A stretch of 64,000 nt of DNA from Diogma glabrata (Eukaryota; Arthropoda; Insecta; Diptera; Cylindrotomidae), in assembly GCA_963693315.1 (NCBI GenBank), contig OY856186.1:89509925-89573924 (forward strand), written 5' to 3'. The notes under the pieces are model-generated. The model ran no database searches. It was not told the DNA's origin and saw only the letters and a program-made list of their open reading frames with translations. Shown piece by piece: positions 12,399 through 41,935 of the stretch (position 1 is the stretch's first letter; each line of letters begins with the position of its first letter). The position numbers and the translations under genes were made by a program.

Positions 12399-12403
12399 GT
12401 TAT

Positions 12404-12773
12404 TGTAATGTATTAACATATTAAGAAAATTAAGAAACACTCTTGCGCTGCAGACTGTAAAATGTAAAATAAAACCTATATATGTATATATGTGAAATTA
12501 GTGATAAAACCTGTAACTTATATATTTTATATATTTAGATTTATGTAATACAATAATTTCCATTTTGGAAAAGAGTGAATGATCACATTTGTTTGCAGTC
12601 AGCTGAGTTATAAGCTTATAAATAAATTAGTGGAAAAATTTAAAATAAACTTTTGTTATATTTAAAAAAAAAAGAGTTATAAGCTTATAAATAAATTAGT
12701 GGAAAAATTTAAAATAAACTTTTGTTATATTTAAAGTTAATAGTTTGATTGTTTGTTTTTCTAATACATAAAA
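12404..12773 (+). repeat. 5' LTR
   Basis: It begins TGTAATGTATTAAC and ends CATAAAA. It contains an internal ~69-bp tandem duplication (starting GAGTTATAAGC at about 12604 and 12673) that is also present in the 3' LTR, so it is inherited rather than new. Confidence 0.95.
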
Positions 12774-12774
12774 G

Positions 12775-12786
12775 TGGCGACGATGA
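12775..12786 (+). other. Primer-binding site candidate
   Basis: TGGCGACGATGA lies one base after the 5' LTR, where reverse transcription would be primed by a tRNA 3' end. The tRNA is not identified. Confidence 0.6.
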
Positions 12787-15970: not shown

Positions 15971-16416
15971 ATCGAATTGTAATTCCAAATAGTTTACAAG
16001 ATAAAGTTTTAAATTTATTACACGAAAATCATGGAGTTGGAATTGTCCGTATGAAAATGATAGCTAGGTCATATGTTTGGTGGTATGGCATAGATAAAGA
16101 TATAGAATGCTTTGTAAACTCATGTTTAATATGTCAACAAAGTCGAAATAGGAATCAAGAAATAGTATCTACACATTGGCCGGCTACTAGTTATCCCTTT
16201 GAAAGGATACACATTGATTTCTTCCATTTTGAAAACAAAGAGTTCATAATTATTGTTGACGCGTATAGTAAATTTGTAGAGGTGGTGTTAATGAATGTCA
16301 CAACAGCATCTGCAGTAATTACAGTTCTGTCAAAATTTTTTTCCAATTTTGGCTTCCCTACAGAAATTGTGTCTGATAATGGGCCTCCATTTAATTCAAT
16401 AGAATTTATTCAGTAA
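15967..16416 (+). pseudogene. Gypsy integrase, N-terminal part, cut by insertion
   Basis: The zinc-binding HHCC domain is intact (His 19, His 22, Cys 53, Cys 56, counted from 15967). The catalytic core follows with IHIDFF (Asp 84) and VSDNGPP (Asp 137), two of the three D,D-E residues. The frame then runs into the ribozyme element that starts at 16408, adding three foreign residues before a stop. The preceding codons DECLFY (15949-15966) belong to this frame, so the protein was continuous with RNase H before a one-base shift near 15945. The rest of the core is at 16974-17784, in the same frame once the insertion and one target copy are discounted. Confidence 0.93.
16397..16407 (+). repeat. 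Target duplication of insertion A, left copy
   Basis: CAATAGAATTT, repeated at 16974-16984 on the other side of the insertion; 11 bp, no mismatch. Confidence 0.9.
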
Positions 16417-16581
16417 ATTATTTGTGATGTAACATCACCCCGATGGAAAATCTCCCATCAAGAATAATATAAGAACTGAATCTAAAAAATTATGCATAAT
16501 TTTTTAGATTCAGTTCTTATATTATTCTTGATGGGAGATTTTCCATCGGGGTGATGTTACATCACAAATAATTTACTGAAT
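16408..16581. repeat. Perfect 174-bp palindrome at the start of insertion A
   Basis: Left arm 16408-16494 and right arm 16495-16581 are exact reverse complements with no spacer (centre TTATG|CATAA). The left arm begins exactly at the insertion boundary. Confidence 0.95.
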
Positions 16582-16595
16582 TAATTGTTGATCAT

Positions 16596-16609
16596 GTGTC
16601 AATAGACAC
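16596..16609 (+). other. Small hairpin in the ribozyme element
   Basis: GTGTC-AATA-GACAC. It is conserved in copy B (sense and antisense). Nearby TCTAGA and GAAGA/TCTTC pairs also suggest a folded RNA. Confidence 0.6.
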
Positions 16610-16829
16610 AAGTGAAGACTAGTCATCTTCTTCTCACAGATACAATTTTGTTATTCAATACTAGAAAATCTAGAGTATAACAAAACAGTGATCACCAGAG
16701 AAATTAATTGACTAAACCTGAATTTATTAAATGTATGTTTATGTAAATTTTTTGTTTTTACACTTCGCTAGAGTTGTAACCTAATTTTTGGTTTATAATC
16801 ATTAGCGTTAACATTTTTTGGTAGAGTTT

Positions 16830-16904
16830 ATCTAGTCGGCTAGCCCTGATGAGAATGATAAACTTTTTTAGTTTAAAAATTTTCTCATTGGTTCGAAACT
16901 AGAT
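16830..16904 (+). ncRNA. Hammerhead ribozyme, copy 1
   Basis: A self-cleaving RNA motif. The conserved cores CTGATGAG (16846-16853) and CGAAAC (16894-16899) are complete. Helix III is seven perfect pairs, ATCTAGT (16830-16836) with ACTAGAT (16898-16904), and is open-ended, so the topology is type III. Cleavage would follow the C of GTC at 16837. Helix I is only GGC-TA-GCC (16838-16845), three pairs and a two-base loop. Helix II begins G-C, A-U, A-U, U-G and then loops over a small AAACT/AGTTT hairpin. The core assignment is read directly; self-cleavage is predicted, not shown. Confidence 0.85.
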
Positions 16905-16973
16905 CGCTCTAAAATTGTATGGATTGCAAAAAGTTTCATAATTTGCACCATAATTTTTTAGATTCAGTTCTTA

Positions 16974-17784
16974 CAATAGAATTTGTAAAATTTTTAGAGC
17001 GGCATGATATTAAAGTAACTAAATCTCCACCGTACCACCCTCAATCGAATGGTTTGGCAGAAAGAAATGTTCAAACAGTAAAATCTGCGTTAAAGAAATA
17101 TCTTCTAGATGAATCTAAACAGCTTACTACACAACAAAGGTTAAATCAATTTTTGATGCAACAAAGAAACACACCTTGTATGTCAACCTCTAAAACTCCG
17201 TCTGAAGTAGTTTTTTCCTATAAACCAAAAATTTTGTTAGATATAGTCAACCCTAGAGCAAAAGTTCGATTTGCTATAGACGAAAATAATAATAAAAATC
17301 TGAAGAACATAGAAAACGCCAGTTATATAAAACTAGATAAAGAAAGAATTAATAATAAAAAATCCTGTATCAACTATAAACATTTCAAAAGAGGTGAAAA
17401 AGTATTATATCAAAACCGTTTTAAAAATTATATAAATTGGATTCCCGCAACGATTTTAAAGCGTGTCAGTCCATTAACGTATTTAATTAATGTAAATAAT
17501 CATGTGCGATTCGTACATGAGAATCGTCTTAGATATTCAAATCTAAATGATAAATTTCATCACAACTTAATATTATTCCGGAGCGTACCCAAATTAAAAA
17601 TGATGTTGCGCTTTCCAAAAAGCAGCATACAGCAGATAAGAATAGTATATCTATGGGTGATGAAAATAATGCTTTTACACCTCCGAATAAGTATTTTGCC
17701 AAAAGAAAACGTAGTCCAGAATTGGAAATAGAATTAAGAAAATCACAAAGAAAAATAAAATCTCCAGATAGATTTAGATATTAA
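16974..17784 (+). pseudogene. Gypsy integrase, catalytic Glu and C-terminal part
   Basis: After the second copy of the target duplication the core resumes with FVKFLERHDIKV and SPPYHPQSNGLAERNVQ, which holds the catalytic Glu. A C-terminal chromatin- and DNA-binding region follows, with FKRGEKVLYQNRFKNY and WIPATILKRVSPLTYLI (GPY/F-like module) and VRFVHENRLRYS. The open frame stops at 17731, but a one-base shift near 17570 gives a better tail, rich in Lys and Arg and ending KSPDRFRY, then TAA at 17784. That is the usual end of gypsy polyproteins. An ATG at 16919 lies within the ribozyme element and is not a real start. Confidence 0.92.
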
Positions 17785-17877
17785 AAAAAAAAAAAATAAA
17801 AACTATAATAATTATGTTAGTTAACTATTGTATTTATTTATTGCTTTATGTAATTTTTGTTTATATAGTTTTAAATT

Positions 17878-17890
17878 AAAAGGGGGAAAG
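17878..17890 (+). other. Polypurine tract
   Basis: AAAAGGGGGAAAG lies just before the 3' LTR (one T between), where plus-strand DNA synthesis would be primed. Confidence 0.85.
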
Positions 17891-18269
17891 TTGTAATGTA
17901 TTAACATATTAAGAAAATTAAGAAACACTCTTGCGCTGCAGACTGTAAAATGTAAAATAAAACCTATATATGTATATATGTGAAATTAGTGATAAAACCT
18001 GTAACTTATATATTTTATATATTTAGATTTATGTAATACAATAATTTCAATTTTGGAAAAGAGTGAATGATCACATTTGTTTGCAGTCAGCTGAGTTATA
18101 AGCTTATAAATAAATTAGTGGAAAAATTTAAAATAAACTTTTGTTATATTATTTGTGATATAACATCACCCCGATGGAAAATCTCCCATCAAAAATAATA
18201 TAAGAACTGAATTTAAAAAATTATGGTGCAAATTATGAAACTTTTTGCAATCCATACAATTTTAGAGCG

Positions 18270-18346
18270 ATCTAGTTTCGAACCAATGAGAAAATTTTTA
18301 AACTTTAAAAAAGTTTATCATTCTCATCAGGGCTAGCCGACTAGAT
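18270..18346 (-). ncRNA. Hammerhead ribozyme, copy 2
   Basis: Same core, GTC cleavage site and seven-pair helix III as copy 1, on the minus strand. The helix II loop hairpin is longer here (AAACTTT/AAAGTTT). It belongs to the full antisense unit of insertion B. Confidence 0.85.
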
Positions 18347-18725
18347 AAACTCTACCAAAAAATGTCAACGCAAATGTATATAAACTAAAAATTAGGTTAC
18401 AACTCTAGCGAAGTGTAAAAACAAAAAATTTACATAAACATACATTTAATAAATTCAGGTTTAGTCAATTAATTTCTCTGGTGATCACTGTTTTGTTATA
18501 CTCTAGACATTCTAGTATTGAATAACAAAATTGTATCTGTGAGAAGAAGATGACTAGTCTTCACTTGTGTCTATTGACACATGATCAACAATTAATTCAG
18601 TAAATTATTTGTGATATAACATCACCCCGATGGAAAATCTCCCATCAAGAATAATATAAGAACTGAATTTAAAAAATTATGGTGCAAATTATGAAACTTT
18701 TTGCAATCCATACAATTTTAGAGCG

Positions 18726-18802
18726 ATCTAGTTTCGAACCAATGAGAAAATTTTTAAACTTTAAAAAAGTTTATCATTCTCATCAGGGCTAGCCGACTAG
18801 AA
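18726..18802 (-). ncRNA. Hammerhead ribozyme, copy 3
   Basis: The core and GTC are intact. The outermost helix III pair is lost (T where the others have A), leaving TCTAGT/ACTAGA, six pairs. It lies 456 bp from copy 2 in direct tandem. Confidence 0.83.
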
Positions 18803-19107
18803 AAACTCTACCAAAAAATGTCAACGCTAATGTATATAAACTAAAAATTAGGTTACAATTAATTATTGATCATGTGTCAATAGACACAAGTGAAGACTAG
18901 TCATCTTCTTCTCACAGATACAATTTTGTTATTCAATACTAGAATGTCTAGAGTATAACAAAACAGTGATCACCAGAGAAATTAATTGACTAAACCTGAA
19001 TTTATTAAATGTATGTTTATGTAAATTTTTTGATTTTACACTTCGCTAGAGTTGTAACCTAATTTTTAGTTTATATACATTAGCGTTGACATTTTTTGGT
19101 AGAGTTT

Positions 19108-19184
19108 ATCTAGTCGGCTAGCCCTGATGAGAATGATAAACTTTTTTAAAGTTTAAAAGTTTTCTCATTGGTTCGAAACTAGAT
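19108..19184 (+). ncRNA. Hammerhead ribozyme, copy 4
   Basis: Core, GTC and seven-pair helix III identical to copy 1. The helix II loop carries the AAACTTT/AAAGTTT hairpin. It lies in the sense unit at the right end of insertion B. Confidence 0.85.
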
Positions 19185-20917
19185 CGCTCTAAAATTGTAT
19201 GGATTGCAAAAAGTTTCATAATTTGCACCATAATTTTTTAAATTCAGTTCTTATAAACTTTTGTTATATTTAAAAAAAAAAGAGTTATAAGCTTATAAAT
19301 AAATTAGTGGAAAAATTTAAAATAAACTTTTGTTATATTTAAAGTTAATAGTTTGATTGTTTGTTTTTCTAATACATAAAAGTTATTTTCGCAAAAATTT
19401 AAAAAAAATTAAAACAAAGCTGAGTCATTATTGTTTTAAATTAAGGAATATTTTCTTCTATGCATATTGATTACACATTGACAAAAGTCTTCCTAAATTG
19501 TAGATATTTGAATTATTTGAGTTGTAAAAAGTTGTTTGACAATTTTAGATTATAAATTATGTTTGGTGGTGTTGAAGGTGTGACGTTGTGAGAACGTTTA
19601 TTTGCTCTTTGGTGGATTTAACATGTTATTAAAAGTAGTTTCAACCAACTTAAATAAAACTGTTCCGAAATCACATTGATAAAGTAGTTTCCGTTAATGT
19701 ATTTAGTTTGGTTTGATAAATTTTTTGGGTTATTCTGGACTTGGACTATTCTACTTAAATTTTTTATTTAAACTAATCTGATATATCCAATTCTATTTGT
19801 ACACAAAGCTGTCTGGTCCCGAAATCTACCTATTTCTAGCGGATATACGTGCCGCTTGGACTTTTTTTTTACTTTGTGCCATATACTAAAAGAAAATTTA
19901 TTGATTTAGTATGTTTTGGGTAAATATTAATTATTTTGGCAGTCCAATATTATAGTAAAGCCTCACTAAGTACCTAGCAAACAAAATAAAAACTATGTAA
20001 GCCGTTTAATTCGTTCGAGCACAGTTTAACTTTAATATTTGCTTGTCTTTGAATTTCTTAAGAATGTTCAATGATTTCTTGACAGTTTACAACAATGCTG
20101 TAAAGAAACTAGTGAAAAACTTAAAGAATAAAAAACACGAATTTTTTTTAGTATACTAACGATTACCGAAGTTTTAAGGAAATCGAAAATGGTCGGGTAT
20201 CATCATCTTGATGCAATTCGAATTTGATTTTCCATGAAGGCGCTTGTATTTCCATTAAACAAAAAACTTACACCAACTTAAATGTATGTAACAATCCTTT
20301 ACATTTTTTTTAATAATTCTTGAAATATAATTCAAATCACGTTTTAAAATGCAAATAAATTTACTTCAAATTTATTTAATTTATTTTTATTATTCTAATT
20401 AACAATACATTGTAAACAATCATTTTGAGAGTTTCAATTCATTGCTTGAATGATTTATTGGAAAAAATAATAGGATTTACATCCATGATATTGGTTTTGA
20501 ATATAACGTCTATGCGAATGCAGATGTAACGTAACAAATGTAACGTAATAAAAATAGATACAATGTTAATTGAAATATAAAAAAATTATATAATCTAATG
20601 TAAAGTAGCATATACTCATATAGGATATATAATTAAAATCTATAAGTTTACGATTTCAAAAACCAATAGAGCCAGTTGCAAATTGTTACAAGAGTTACCA
20701 GTTGAGTTAAGTTTTAAAAAAGTAACCAAGCTATAAGTATTAAAATTCTATATATATATAAATGCTATCCCAAAATTAACGCAACATTTGAATTTGCCAC
20801 CATTTGTATAGTAAATTGTTGGCAACCCTGAAAATCTAGTTGCCCACTGACTGATAAGGGTTAGTAAAAATGAAAGTTTACACAATACAACAAGTTGTTT
20901 TAATTATTCAACAATAT

Positions 20918-40559: not shown

Positions 40560-41935
40560 AGATTTGAACTTGACCATTTTTGATTTTCCTGAAACTTGGC
40601 ATATAAGTAGTATGGACAGAATAAAAAGTACAACTTATTTTAAAATTTTTTTAAAGTGCATAGTTTCAGCATAGGGGGCACCCCAACATCCATGAAAAAT
40701 GAAAATTCTGCCAATCCGATGTAACTTTGAAATTAAATTGCTCAAGAACGGCTATATCGATTTTATCTAATTTGAAATTTGGAATTTTTTTGTTTAATAG
40801 ATGATTAATTAGTCGTTTGAAAAAAAATTAATTTATTGCTTAGATTATTAATTTTTAAATAAAAATATTAAAAAATCTTTTTTAAAGAGGACGCTAGGAT
40901 CAAAGATCAATTGGAATTTAATTAATTTTTTTTTTGAAAATAGTTCTATCCTTACTCTAAAATATATCAAATTAACTCAGAGGCGTTAATTTTTGTTCTA
41001 GAGATACTTAATTTTAAAGATTTTTAGTATGACTGACATTCGAATTTTTCATCATTTTTTCAATTAACTTCCATTAACAAAAATTTTAAAATCAATTAAA
41101 TTTTAACTTTAGTTTTTTATATATAGTTCCAACCTTACTTTAAAATATATCAAATTTACAAAGAGGCGTTAATTCGTGTTCTTGAGATATTTAATTTTAA
41201 AGATTTTTAAACCGATTAAAATTCTAATTGTTCATTATTTTCTCGAACTTCAGTGGTTAAAATTTTTTCATGATCAAAATTGTTCGAAAAAATAATGAAC
41301 AATTAGAATTTTAGATGGACTAAAAATCTTTAAAATTAAATATCTCAAGAACACGAATTAACGCCTCTTTGTAAATTTGATATATTTTAAAGTAAGGTTA
41401 GAGCTATATTTAAAAAAAAAGTTAAAATTTAATTGATTTTAAATTTTTTTGTTAATGGAAGTCGTTTGAAAAAATGAAGAAAAATTCGAATTTCAGTCGT
41501 TCTAAAAATTTTTTAAATTAAATATCTCAATAACAAGAATTAACGTTTTAAGAATAAAACTATTTTCAGAAAAAAAATTTATTAAATTCCAATTGGTCTT
41601 CGACCCTAGCGCCATCTTTAAAAAAGTTTTTTTAATATTTTTTATTTAAAAATTAATTATATAAACAATAAATTAATTTTTTTCAAACGACTAACTAATC
41701 ATCTATCAAACAAAAAAAAGTTTGATGAAATCAGTATAGCCGTTCTTTAGCAATTTAATTTCAAAGTTACATTGGATTGGCAGAATTTTCATTTTTCATG
41801 CATGTTGGGGTGCCTCGTATGCTCAAACTATGCATTTTCAAAAAATTTTAAAATAAGAAGTATTTTTTATTTTATCCATACTACTTATATGCCAAGTTTC
41901 AGGAAAATCAAAAATGGTCAAGTTTTCACAACTCT
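40560..41935. repeat. Giant imperfect inverted repeat (arms ~690 and ~655 bp)
   Basis: The left arm, 40560-41249, pairs with 41282-41935 across a ~32-base loop. Shared landmarks, inverted, are TGACCATTTTTGATTTTCCT, CATATAAGTAGTATGGA, GGCACCCCAACAT, AATTCTGCCAATCC, GAGGCGTTAATT and TTCTAATTGTTCATTATTTT. Each arm also contains an internal duplication around CCTTACTCTAAAATATATCA. A transcript would fold into a stem of several hundred base pairs. Confidence 0.92.

Follow-up and report, generated by a model that had tools for sequence, protein, structure and literature searches.

Animal retrozymes without long terminal repeats (LTRs) are described as short, gene-less, AT-rich tandem repeats with hammerhead ribozymes and target duplications of more than 4 bp. 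Their movement as RNA rings by the enzymes of long interspersed nuclear elements (LINEs) or Penelope-like elements (PLEs) has been proposed (Cervera and de la Pena 2020, PMC7229834), with PLEs presented as no more than strong candidates (PMC7229834). The 64,000-nt stretch of the Diogma glabrata genome analyzed here (contig OY856186.1, positions 89,509,925 to 89,573,924; hereafter the window) holds two insertions, 1 and 2, of a repeat unit that resembles these retrozymes in all of the features listed. We propose, with a probability of roughly 0.64, that this unit is a non-autonomous, retrozyme-like element moved by Penelope-like enzymes, with priming on both strands of the target. The insertions address how PLEs integrate, how their inverted ends and tail arise, and what mobilizes animal retrozymes: many recent, gene-less copies record a reaction with two fixed starts, one per target strand, and arms of arbitrary length.

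For PLEs, an anole protein was found in vitro to start reverse transcription at two adjacent internal sites of its RNA and to extend both target strands, and the sequence between the two start sites corresponds to the genomic "tail" (PMC11167929). Bdelloid Penelope elements have inverted ends, target duplications of 8–10 bp and an optional one-sided tail of 31 bp, an arrangement that was read as self-priming (PMC3846280). The Diogma insertions share with these PLEs the head-to-head inverted arms, the target duplications and a one-sided tail between adjacent starts, as well as partial tandems and a hammerhead upstream of a start site (PMC3846280, PMC11167929). They differ from PLEs in that the unit has no reverse transcriptase (RT) or GIY-YIG frame, in that PLE hammerheads are of the minimal type I, and in the distance between the two start sites, A and B, which is ~65 nt here as compared with 30–42 nt for PLE tails. 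Relative to the animal retrozymes described in PMC7229834, which carry type I hammerheads and have RNAs of ~170–400 nt, the unit has a type III order and a length of 454–456 nt, and its outward-facing two-arm insertions with two fixed ends are unlike those described there; circular RNA has been demonstrated for animal retrozymes, whereas a ring is proposed here from DNA sequence (PMC7229834). Plant LTR retrozymes are similar in having a type III hammerhead and in that pairing within the predicted ring blocks the ribozyme, but they possess LTRs and 4-bp duplications, whereas the duplications here are 8–17 bp and no LTRs were seen (PMC7229834). Type III hammerheads have also been described in hepatitis delta virus-like agents and in termite and dipteran genomes, which the unit resembles as a type III hammerhead in an arthropod, but those have a long helix I and a loop-loop pseudoknot (PMC7936874) where the unit has an 8-nt palindrome. 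Our best reading is that the element would act like a non-LTR retrozyme served by PLE enzymes, without being a full member of the described (type I) animal retrozymes. Within the open-licence literature, as covered by titles and the beginnings of abstracts, we found no description of a type III animal retrozyme, or of insertions that combine two fixed starts with one haplotype.

The two insertions (Table 1) share a common unit of 454–456 nt, as measured by the spacing of the hammerhead cores, with 95–99% identity and a G+C content of 28.9%. No frame longer than 37 amino acids lies wholly within either insertion in a list of open reading frames of at least 30 amino acids, and neither contains a frame for RT plus GIY-YIG. 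Both insertions have inverted arms and a common end, ATTCAGTTCTTA, and the minus-strand units of insertion 2 lie head-to-tail at a spacing of 456 nt. The sequence-only description in the initial annotation (a shared ~456-bp unit without an open frame, a head-to-tail pair in one insertion, a common end, inverted arms, and direct repeats of 11 and 17 bp) is borne out in each of these respects, and the direct repeats are exact. Insertion 1 breaks a frame downstream of the RT/RNase H frame of an LTR element with the Pfam domains Retrotrans_gag, RVT_1, and RT_RNaseH; its label "gypsy" is the name used in that annotation. Insertion 2 interrupts the 3′ LTR of this element. When insertion 2 is removed, the 3′ LTR matches the 5′ LTR at 372 of 373 positions and contains the 17-bp target once. 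Because the LTR pair is nearly identical, the LTR element is young, and the two insertions are younger still. The host LTR also carries a 69-bp tandem duplication (window 12595–12745 and 18083–19350), and insertion 2 sits at the end of its first copy.

Table 1. Positions (window coordinates) of the two insertions, their hammerhead cores and their host LTRs
Feature	Position	Strand	Remarks
Insertion 1	16408-16973		566 bp
Left target site duplication, insertion 1	16397..16407	.	exact 11-bp repeat CAATAGAATTT
Right target site duplication, insertion 1	16974..16984	.	11-bp repeat CAATAGAATTT
Inverted arm, insertion 1	16408..16494	-	outer end at site B, unit position ~203
Sense arm, insertion 1	16495..16973	+	25 nt of one unit and one full 454-nt unit; outer end at site A, unit position 136
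A-B domain	16508..16581	+	predicted closed stem with two inner hairpins; A and B near its base
Hammerhead core, type III order	16830..16904	+	cleavage predicted after 16837
Insertion 2	18151-19253		1,103 bp
Left target site duplication, insertion 2	18134..18150	.	exact 17-bp repeat TAAACTTTTGTTATATT
Right target site duplication, insertion 2	19254..19270	.	17-bp repeat TAAACTTTTGTTATATT
Inverted arm, insertion 2	18151..18858	-	~1.5 tandem units; outer end at site B, unit position 192
Sense arm, insertion 2	18857..19253	+	~0.9 unit; outer end at site A
Hammerhead core	18270..18346	-	cleavage predicted between 18339 and 18338
Hammerhead core, helix III 6 bp	18726..18802	-	cleavage predicted between 18795 and 18794
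Hammerhead core	19108..19184	+	cleavage predicted after 19115
5′ LTR of host LTR element	12403..12775	+	paralogous empty site of insertion 2
3′ LTR, part before insertion 2	17891..18150	+	resumes 19271-19383

As the initial annotation anticipated, the unit is not confined to the window. The exact 19-nt core GTCGGCTAGCCCTGATGAG occurs 7,299 times in the genome, as compared with zero occurrences of the reversed control; the unit is part of a mobile family whose copies number in the thousands. For the analysis of ends we used 42 rows, from which L042 was dropped as the same insertion as L071. Among the resulting 41 loci there are 39 separate insertions (L049, L050, and L051, which have their flanks in common, represent the same insertion), and 37 have both ends; L063, L072, L077, and L080 are truncated at the limits of the fetched DNA. 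Loci L052, L082, L083, L085, and L086 stand outside this analysis. Exact target duplications of 8–17 bp (median 12) flank 24 of the 37 complete loci and measure at least 11 bp in 19 of these 24; 23 of the duplications come from the main end analysis and that of L061 from a wider search. Among 394 control pseudo-insertions with random flanks, by comparison, repeats of at least 8 bp were found in 13, of at least 9 bp in 3, and of at least 11 bp in none.

The outer ends of these insertions fall at two fixed points of the unit, whose numbering starts at the predicted cleavage point. In 21 of the 24 insertions with duplications, one end lies at site A (BLAST end 136–149, ...ATTCAGTTCTTA, ~136 nt after the predicted cleavage point) and the opposite end at site B (unit positions 192–219, ...TTTACTGAATTAATT), and the arms are inverted and face outward; neither the combination A/A nor B/B occurs among the 24. 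The remaining three (L044, L061, and L064) are single arms with A at one end, cut off elsewhere. Three of the 21 A/B insertions are more complex: L069 has an extra internal inverted piece, and L060 and L070 have internal deletions. No duplication of at least 8 bp was found at 13 complete loci (L047–L051, L065, L074–L076, L078, L079, L081, and L084); L047 ends at A and at position 179, and most of the others are single arms or decayed. LTRs were not seen, and no search aimed at a primer binding site or a polypurine tract was made. The stretch between A and B is predicted to fold as one domain (z = −3.4 for 16508–16585); the folds of variants give its closing stem no independent support, the search pattern having required both stem strands.

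Most of these loci were picked for matching the window copy best and are hence young. The only sample not chosen by similarity is the position-ordered list of cores, taken as the first 100 of the 7,299 places. These 100 exact cores, on contig C1, form 60 clusters, 35 of them single cores, and neighbors no more than 2 kb apart are oriented minus-plus in 20 cases, plus-minus in none, and on the same strand in 20 with a modal spacing of 454. Because this position-ordered sample shows the same layout, the outward arrangement does not stem from the choice of loci. A miniature inverted-repeat transposable element (MITE) or another DNA transposon with terminal inverted repeats was considered and rejected, because A and B, the outer ends, correspond to distinct unit positions and the inverted copies that form the arms vary in length.

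Arm length ranges from ~0.1 unit (L070) to at least 12 units (L052), and the arms meet at unrelated unit positions, joined through overlaps of 1–7 nt or fillers of up to ~20 nt. We typed 17 junctions by hand, including L063, although it is cut off, and leaving out insertion 2, L060, L069, L070, and L073. The 34 inner ends are uniformly distributed over the unit (Kolmogorov–Smirnov p = 0.58), and none lies within 3 nt of the predicted cleavage point. A linear cleaved monomer as the template was rejected on this last count (0 of 34).

The same insertion design is found among the GIY-YIG elements of this genome. A first look yielded 4,129 candidate GIY-YIG frames, 150 of which were scored and listed; judged by domain, frame length, and layout, these frames are putatively Penelope-like. 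Among the 150, neighbors no more than 15 kb apart are oriented minus-plus in 17 cases, plus-minus in none, and on the same strand in 9, so that opposite-strand neighbors face outward in 17 of 17, like the arms of the retrozyme-like insertions. One of two such pairs tested, on contig C3 (outer sides L088 and L091), is flanked by a 12-bp duplication and has one end that is 42 nt longer. In the L087 family, the ends of 20 of 42 matches cluster in an interval of 11 nt (query 447–457), which is 149–159 nt after a hammerhead-like motif; in L088, the distance from such a motif to the end point is ~86 nt, and site A of the retrozyme-like unit, for comparison, follows the predicted cleavage point by 136 nt. 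These observations support the conclusion that the retrozyme-like unit and the GIY-YIG elements share an insertion design. The motifs in question (L087:500-560 and L088:370-415), seen by eye, are type I-like (minimal in L087), with GAAACCGGU and a CCGG palindrome, and depart from the CUGAUGA core. Separately, at G000:C598:2654-17122, at least six GIY-YIG units follow one another head to tail at a spacing of 2,868–2,869 bp, with frames of 620–840 amino acids.

To compare haplotypes we used 114 pieces from 26 insertions. Pooled over 214 pairs, pieces of the same arm differ by 0.0043 per nucleotide; the value is 0.0034 for 130 pairs taken from the two arms of an insertion and 0.0243 for 6,076 pairs from different insertions. 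The long arrays L052, L058, L063, and L056 dominate these means. Within-insertion difference is ~1% or less in 18 of 24 insertions. Because the units of an insertion are thus mostly near-identical, the comparison points to a common origin of both arms from one monomer in most insertions, and a ring copied several times would explain the uniform insertions most simply. In L052, which has at least 12 units, a single variant recurs every four units (3, 7, and 11, with numbering from 0); this could hint at a four-unit template, at conversion, or at chance.

Four hammerhead cores are present in the window, each consisting of GTC, 8 nt, CTGATGA, a 4-bp helix II, GAAA, and a helix III of 7, 7, 7, and 6 bp, respectively; complete cores with a helix III of 6–7 pairs and a very short helix I are what the initial annotation had described. 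The unit reads AUCUAGUC and, beyond the predicted cleavage point and as written, GGCUAGCC-CUGAUGA-helix II-GAAACUAGAU; one unit has UUCUAGUC. Helix II is GAAU/GUUC (4 bp), helix III is open, and the order of helices is therefore that of type III. Helix I is the 8-nt palindrome GGCUAGCC, which can form only 2–4 bp within one molecule (the usual loop leaves 2) and 8 bp between two molecules, with a predicted duplex energy of −14.8 kcal/mol. It leaves no room for the usual loop, and a type I hammerhead with a loop-loop contact is not matched. Small PLE hammerhead variants reportedly cleave as dimers (Lunse et al. 2017); these are alike in having a weak helix suited to pairing between ribozymes and differ in that the short helix is helix III there and helix I here.

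The invariant hammerhead core and three helices are all present in the unit. With a lenient hammerhead descriptor, the four cores are the sole matches in the window. Among the controls, 1,531 dinucleotide-shuffled windows contained 15 matches (0.0098 per window), and 22,524 shuffled dimers of the unit contained 4; a chance motif was rejected on these grounds. Among the fetched loci, 123 of 141 copies (90 distinct copies) keep GTC, CTGATGAG, and CGAAAC in this order. We infer that the unit is a hammerhead ribozyme that cleaves. Outside this genome, a 23-mer of the unit has no match in a viral collection, and the 21 matches of a 16-mer in a prokaryotic collection are most likely due to chance. 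A working ribozyme would add a hammerhead layout (type III with a palindromic helix I) that the Rfam models did not detect, so that similar elements elsewhere may have been overlooked.

The proposed mechanism begins with the transcription of tandem units, from which the type III hammerhead would cut monomers of 454–456 nt that would then be closed into rings. A Penelope-like RT/GIY-YIG endonuclease acting in trans would cut the target with a stagger; the nicked strand, with a 3′ end that is usually ...TG, would prime a cDNA at RNA site A, and the opposite target strand would prime a second cDNA at site B, ~65 nt away across the folded RNA domain. Both polymerizations may circle the template several times, which would produce the tandem units of each arm, and the two cDNAs would finally be joined at arbitrary points through microhomology or filler. 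Fixed ends A and B, inverted arms, duplications, a mostly single haplotype, and the likeness to GIY-YIG elements can be read from the genome itself. A more specific version is tentative and, on balance, doubtful: a single PLE complex might copy one small RNA ring in a rolling manner from both 3′ ends of a staggered break, with the two start sites flanking one RNA fold; a new kind of type III hammerhead, acting as a dimer via its palindromic 8-bp helix I, would free the unit from tandem transcripts. If true, this ring and dimer arrangement would explain both the tandem arrays of animal retrozymes and the inverted ends and tails of Penelope.

The initial annotation had seen in the window the signature of retrozymes or hammerhead-bearing PLEs copied by a borrowed RT. 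The mobile family, the tandem units, the duplications, and the GIY-YIG-like architecture sustain that reading and the missing Rfam match does not, while ribozyme activity with cleavage, circularity of the RNA, and identity of the borrowed enzyme are what we infer. The type III order, the two distinct fixed ends A and B, the arms apparently primed from both strands, and the mostly single haplotype go beyond what had been noticed.

Several observations weigh against our proposal. Covariance models, to which the initial annotation had looked for corroboration, provide none: Rfam hammerhead models have no match in the window at E ≤ 1, nor in a 131-nt stretch at E ≤ 10. The minimum-energy fold (−27.2 kcal/mol) pairs GAUGAGAA with UUCUCAUU and buries the core, and the hammerhead fold (−14.9 kcal/mol) is ~12 kcal/mol worse; the core is mostly paired in the predicted ring, too. 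Because blocked ribozymes are known from the rings of plant retrozymes and viroids (PMC7229834), a buried core is compatible with function. Covariation was found in 0 of 455 cells (changes on both sides; 35 aligned variants, with pairs that hardly vary), and for the rival fold the covariation signal likewise does not exceed that of shuffles. The hammerhead contains 8 of 134 variants shared by at least two insertions as compared with 27 of 254 single-unit variants, a difference that is not significant (p = 0.14). Six insertions (L043, L044, L045, L060, L069, and L070) differ internally by 1.8–3.1%, as much as different insertions do; most of them are older copies (93–96% identity to the window unit), and the arms of L060 carry two different haplotypes. 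Moreover, 18 variant cells segregate within an insertion and yet are shared with at least two others. L078, an old copy without a duplication, has B at both ends, and L069 repeats a piece that holds an inverted junction. Among the GIY-YIG elements, no target duplication was found for a second pair (contig C4, L089 and L090), and five PLE stretches from three places gave a best match to the unit of only E 0.009 over 21 nt. A genome search for a partner PLE by way of the A-B domain returned 0 candidates, a result that is uninformative because very common words were skipped. In the anole PLE, hammerhead mutants had no effect on insertion in vitro, and the ribozyme needed protein, with no RNA read beginning or ending at its site (PMC11167929).

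The repeat in L069 (L069:3224-4290) comprises 420 nt of sense and antisense unit pieces, with the inverted junction 58/95 occurring twice, and suggests either a template that already had an inverted junction or a later duplication.

The alternative that survives best retains the enzyme and the two-sided priming but replaces the ring by a long, linear RNA transcribed from a homogeneous array in the genome. Uniform arrays exist (L058 and L063) and would yield equally uniform transcripts; unprocessed RNA can serve the anole PLE in vitro (PMC11167929), L069 requires a template with an inverted junction, and the six non-uniform insertions also fit. These six of the 24 slightly lower the odds for our proposal and raise those for a linear template. 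The variants themselves speak against a linear template. In the 23 insertions with at least three pieces, 91 variants occur in all covered pieces, 111 in a single piece, and 12 are intermediate. Eleven of the 91 are private to one insertion, and these fall in 6 of the 23 insertions, with five in L046, whose pieces longer than 150 nt do not differ from one another. Such private variants in all pieces argue for a single-monomer stage at some step, perhaps not at every transposition, although the parent array may simply be unsampled. The arms of one insertion are also as alike as the units within one arm, which does not favor a linear template. We regard this alternative as serious but unlikely.

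A rather less probable alternative holds that the hammerhead motif is due to chance or is a mere relic, with template jumping or recombination among repeats as the source of monomers. The buried core, the lack of covariation, and the missing Rfam match speak for it. The low rates of matches in shuffled windows and dimers and the retention of the ordered motifs in 123 of 141 copies do not, and the absence of arm ends at the cleavage point and the hammerhead-like motifs 86–159 nt from the end point in two PLE stretches (recognized by eye) also count against it.

LINE-type twin priming, in which a LINE would mobilize the repeat and a second primer would invade the RNA at a random upstream place, is very improbable. 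It would account for inverted arms, variable target duplications, and junction overlaps of 1–7 nt. In LINE twin priming, however, the second primer lands at a random place in the RNA, whereas here the second start is confined to a 28-nt zone (192–219) in 21 of 21 insertions. Furthermore, no poly(A) separates the A end from the duplication, and the target at the A junction is CA, so that the first strand, the primer, ends in TG, in 18 of 24 insertions (by our reading, one ambiguous base allowed). Least credible of all is the self-priming or fold-back of one RNA or cDNA, as advanced for bdelloid Penelope (PMC3846280), which predicts equal positions for the inner ends and leaves the second fixed outer end unexplained: the inner ends of the two arms are 0–5 nt apart at only 3 of 17 junctions (L043, L058, and insertion 1, the last with a perfect palindrome) and 11–188 nt apart at the other 14 (at least 99 nt at 8), and because they usually differ, priming from two strands fits better.

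Elsewhere in the window lies a HARBI1-like transposase frame (379–879), for which the named relatives come from four insects, two ticks, and two fish; this piece has no Pfam match at 0.001. A long inverted repeat at 41197–41333 matches two microRNA models below their cut-offs and is perhaps a MITE-like hairpin.

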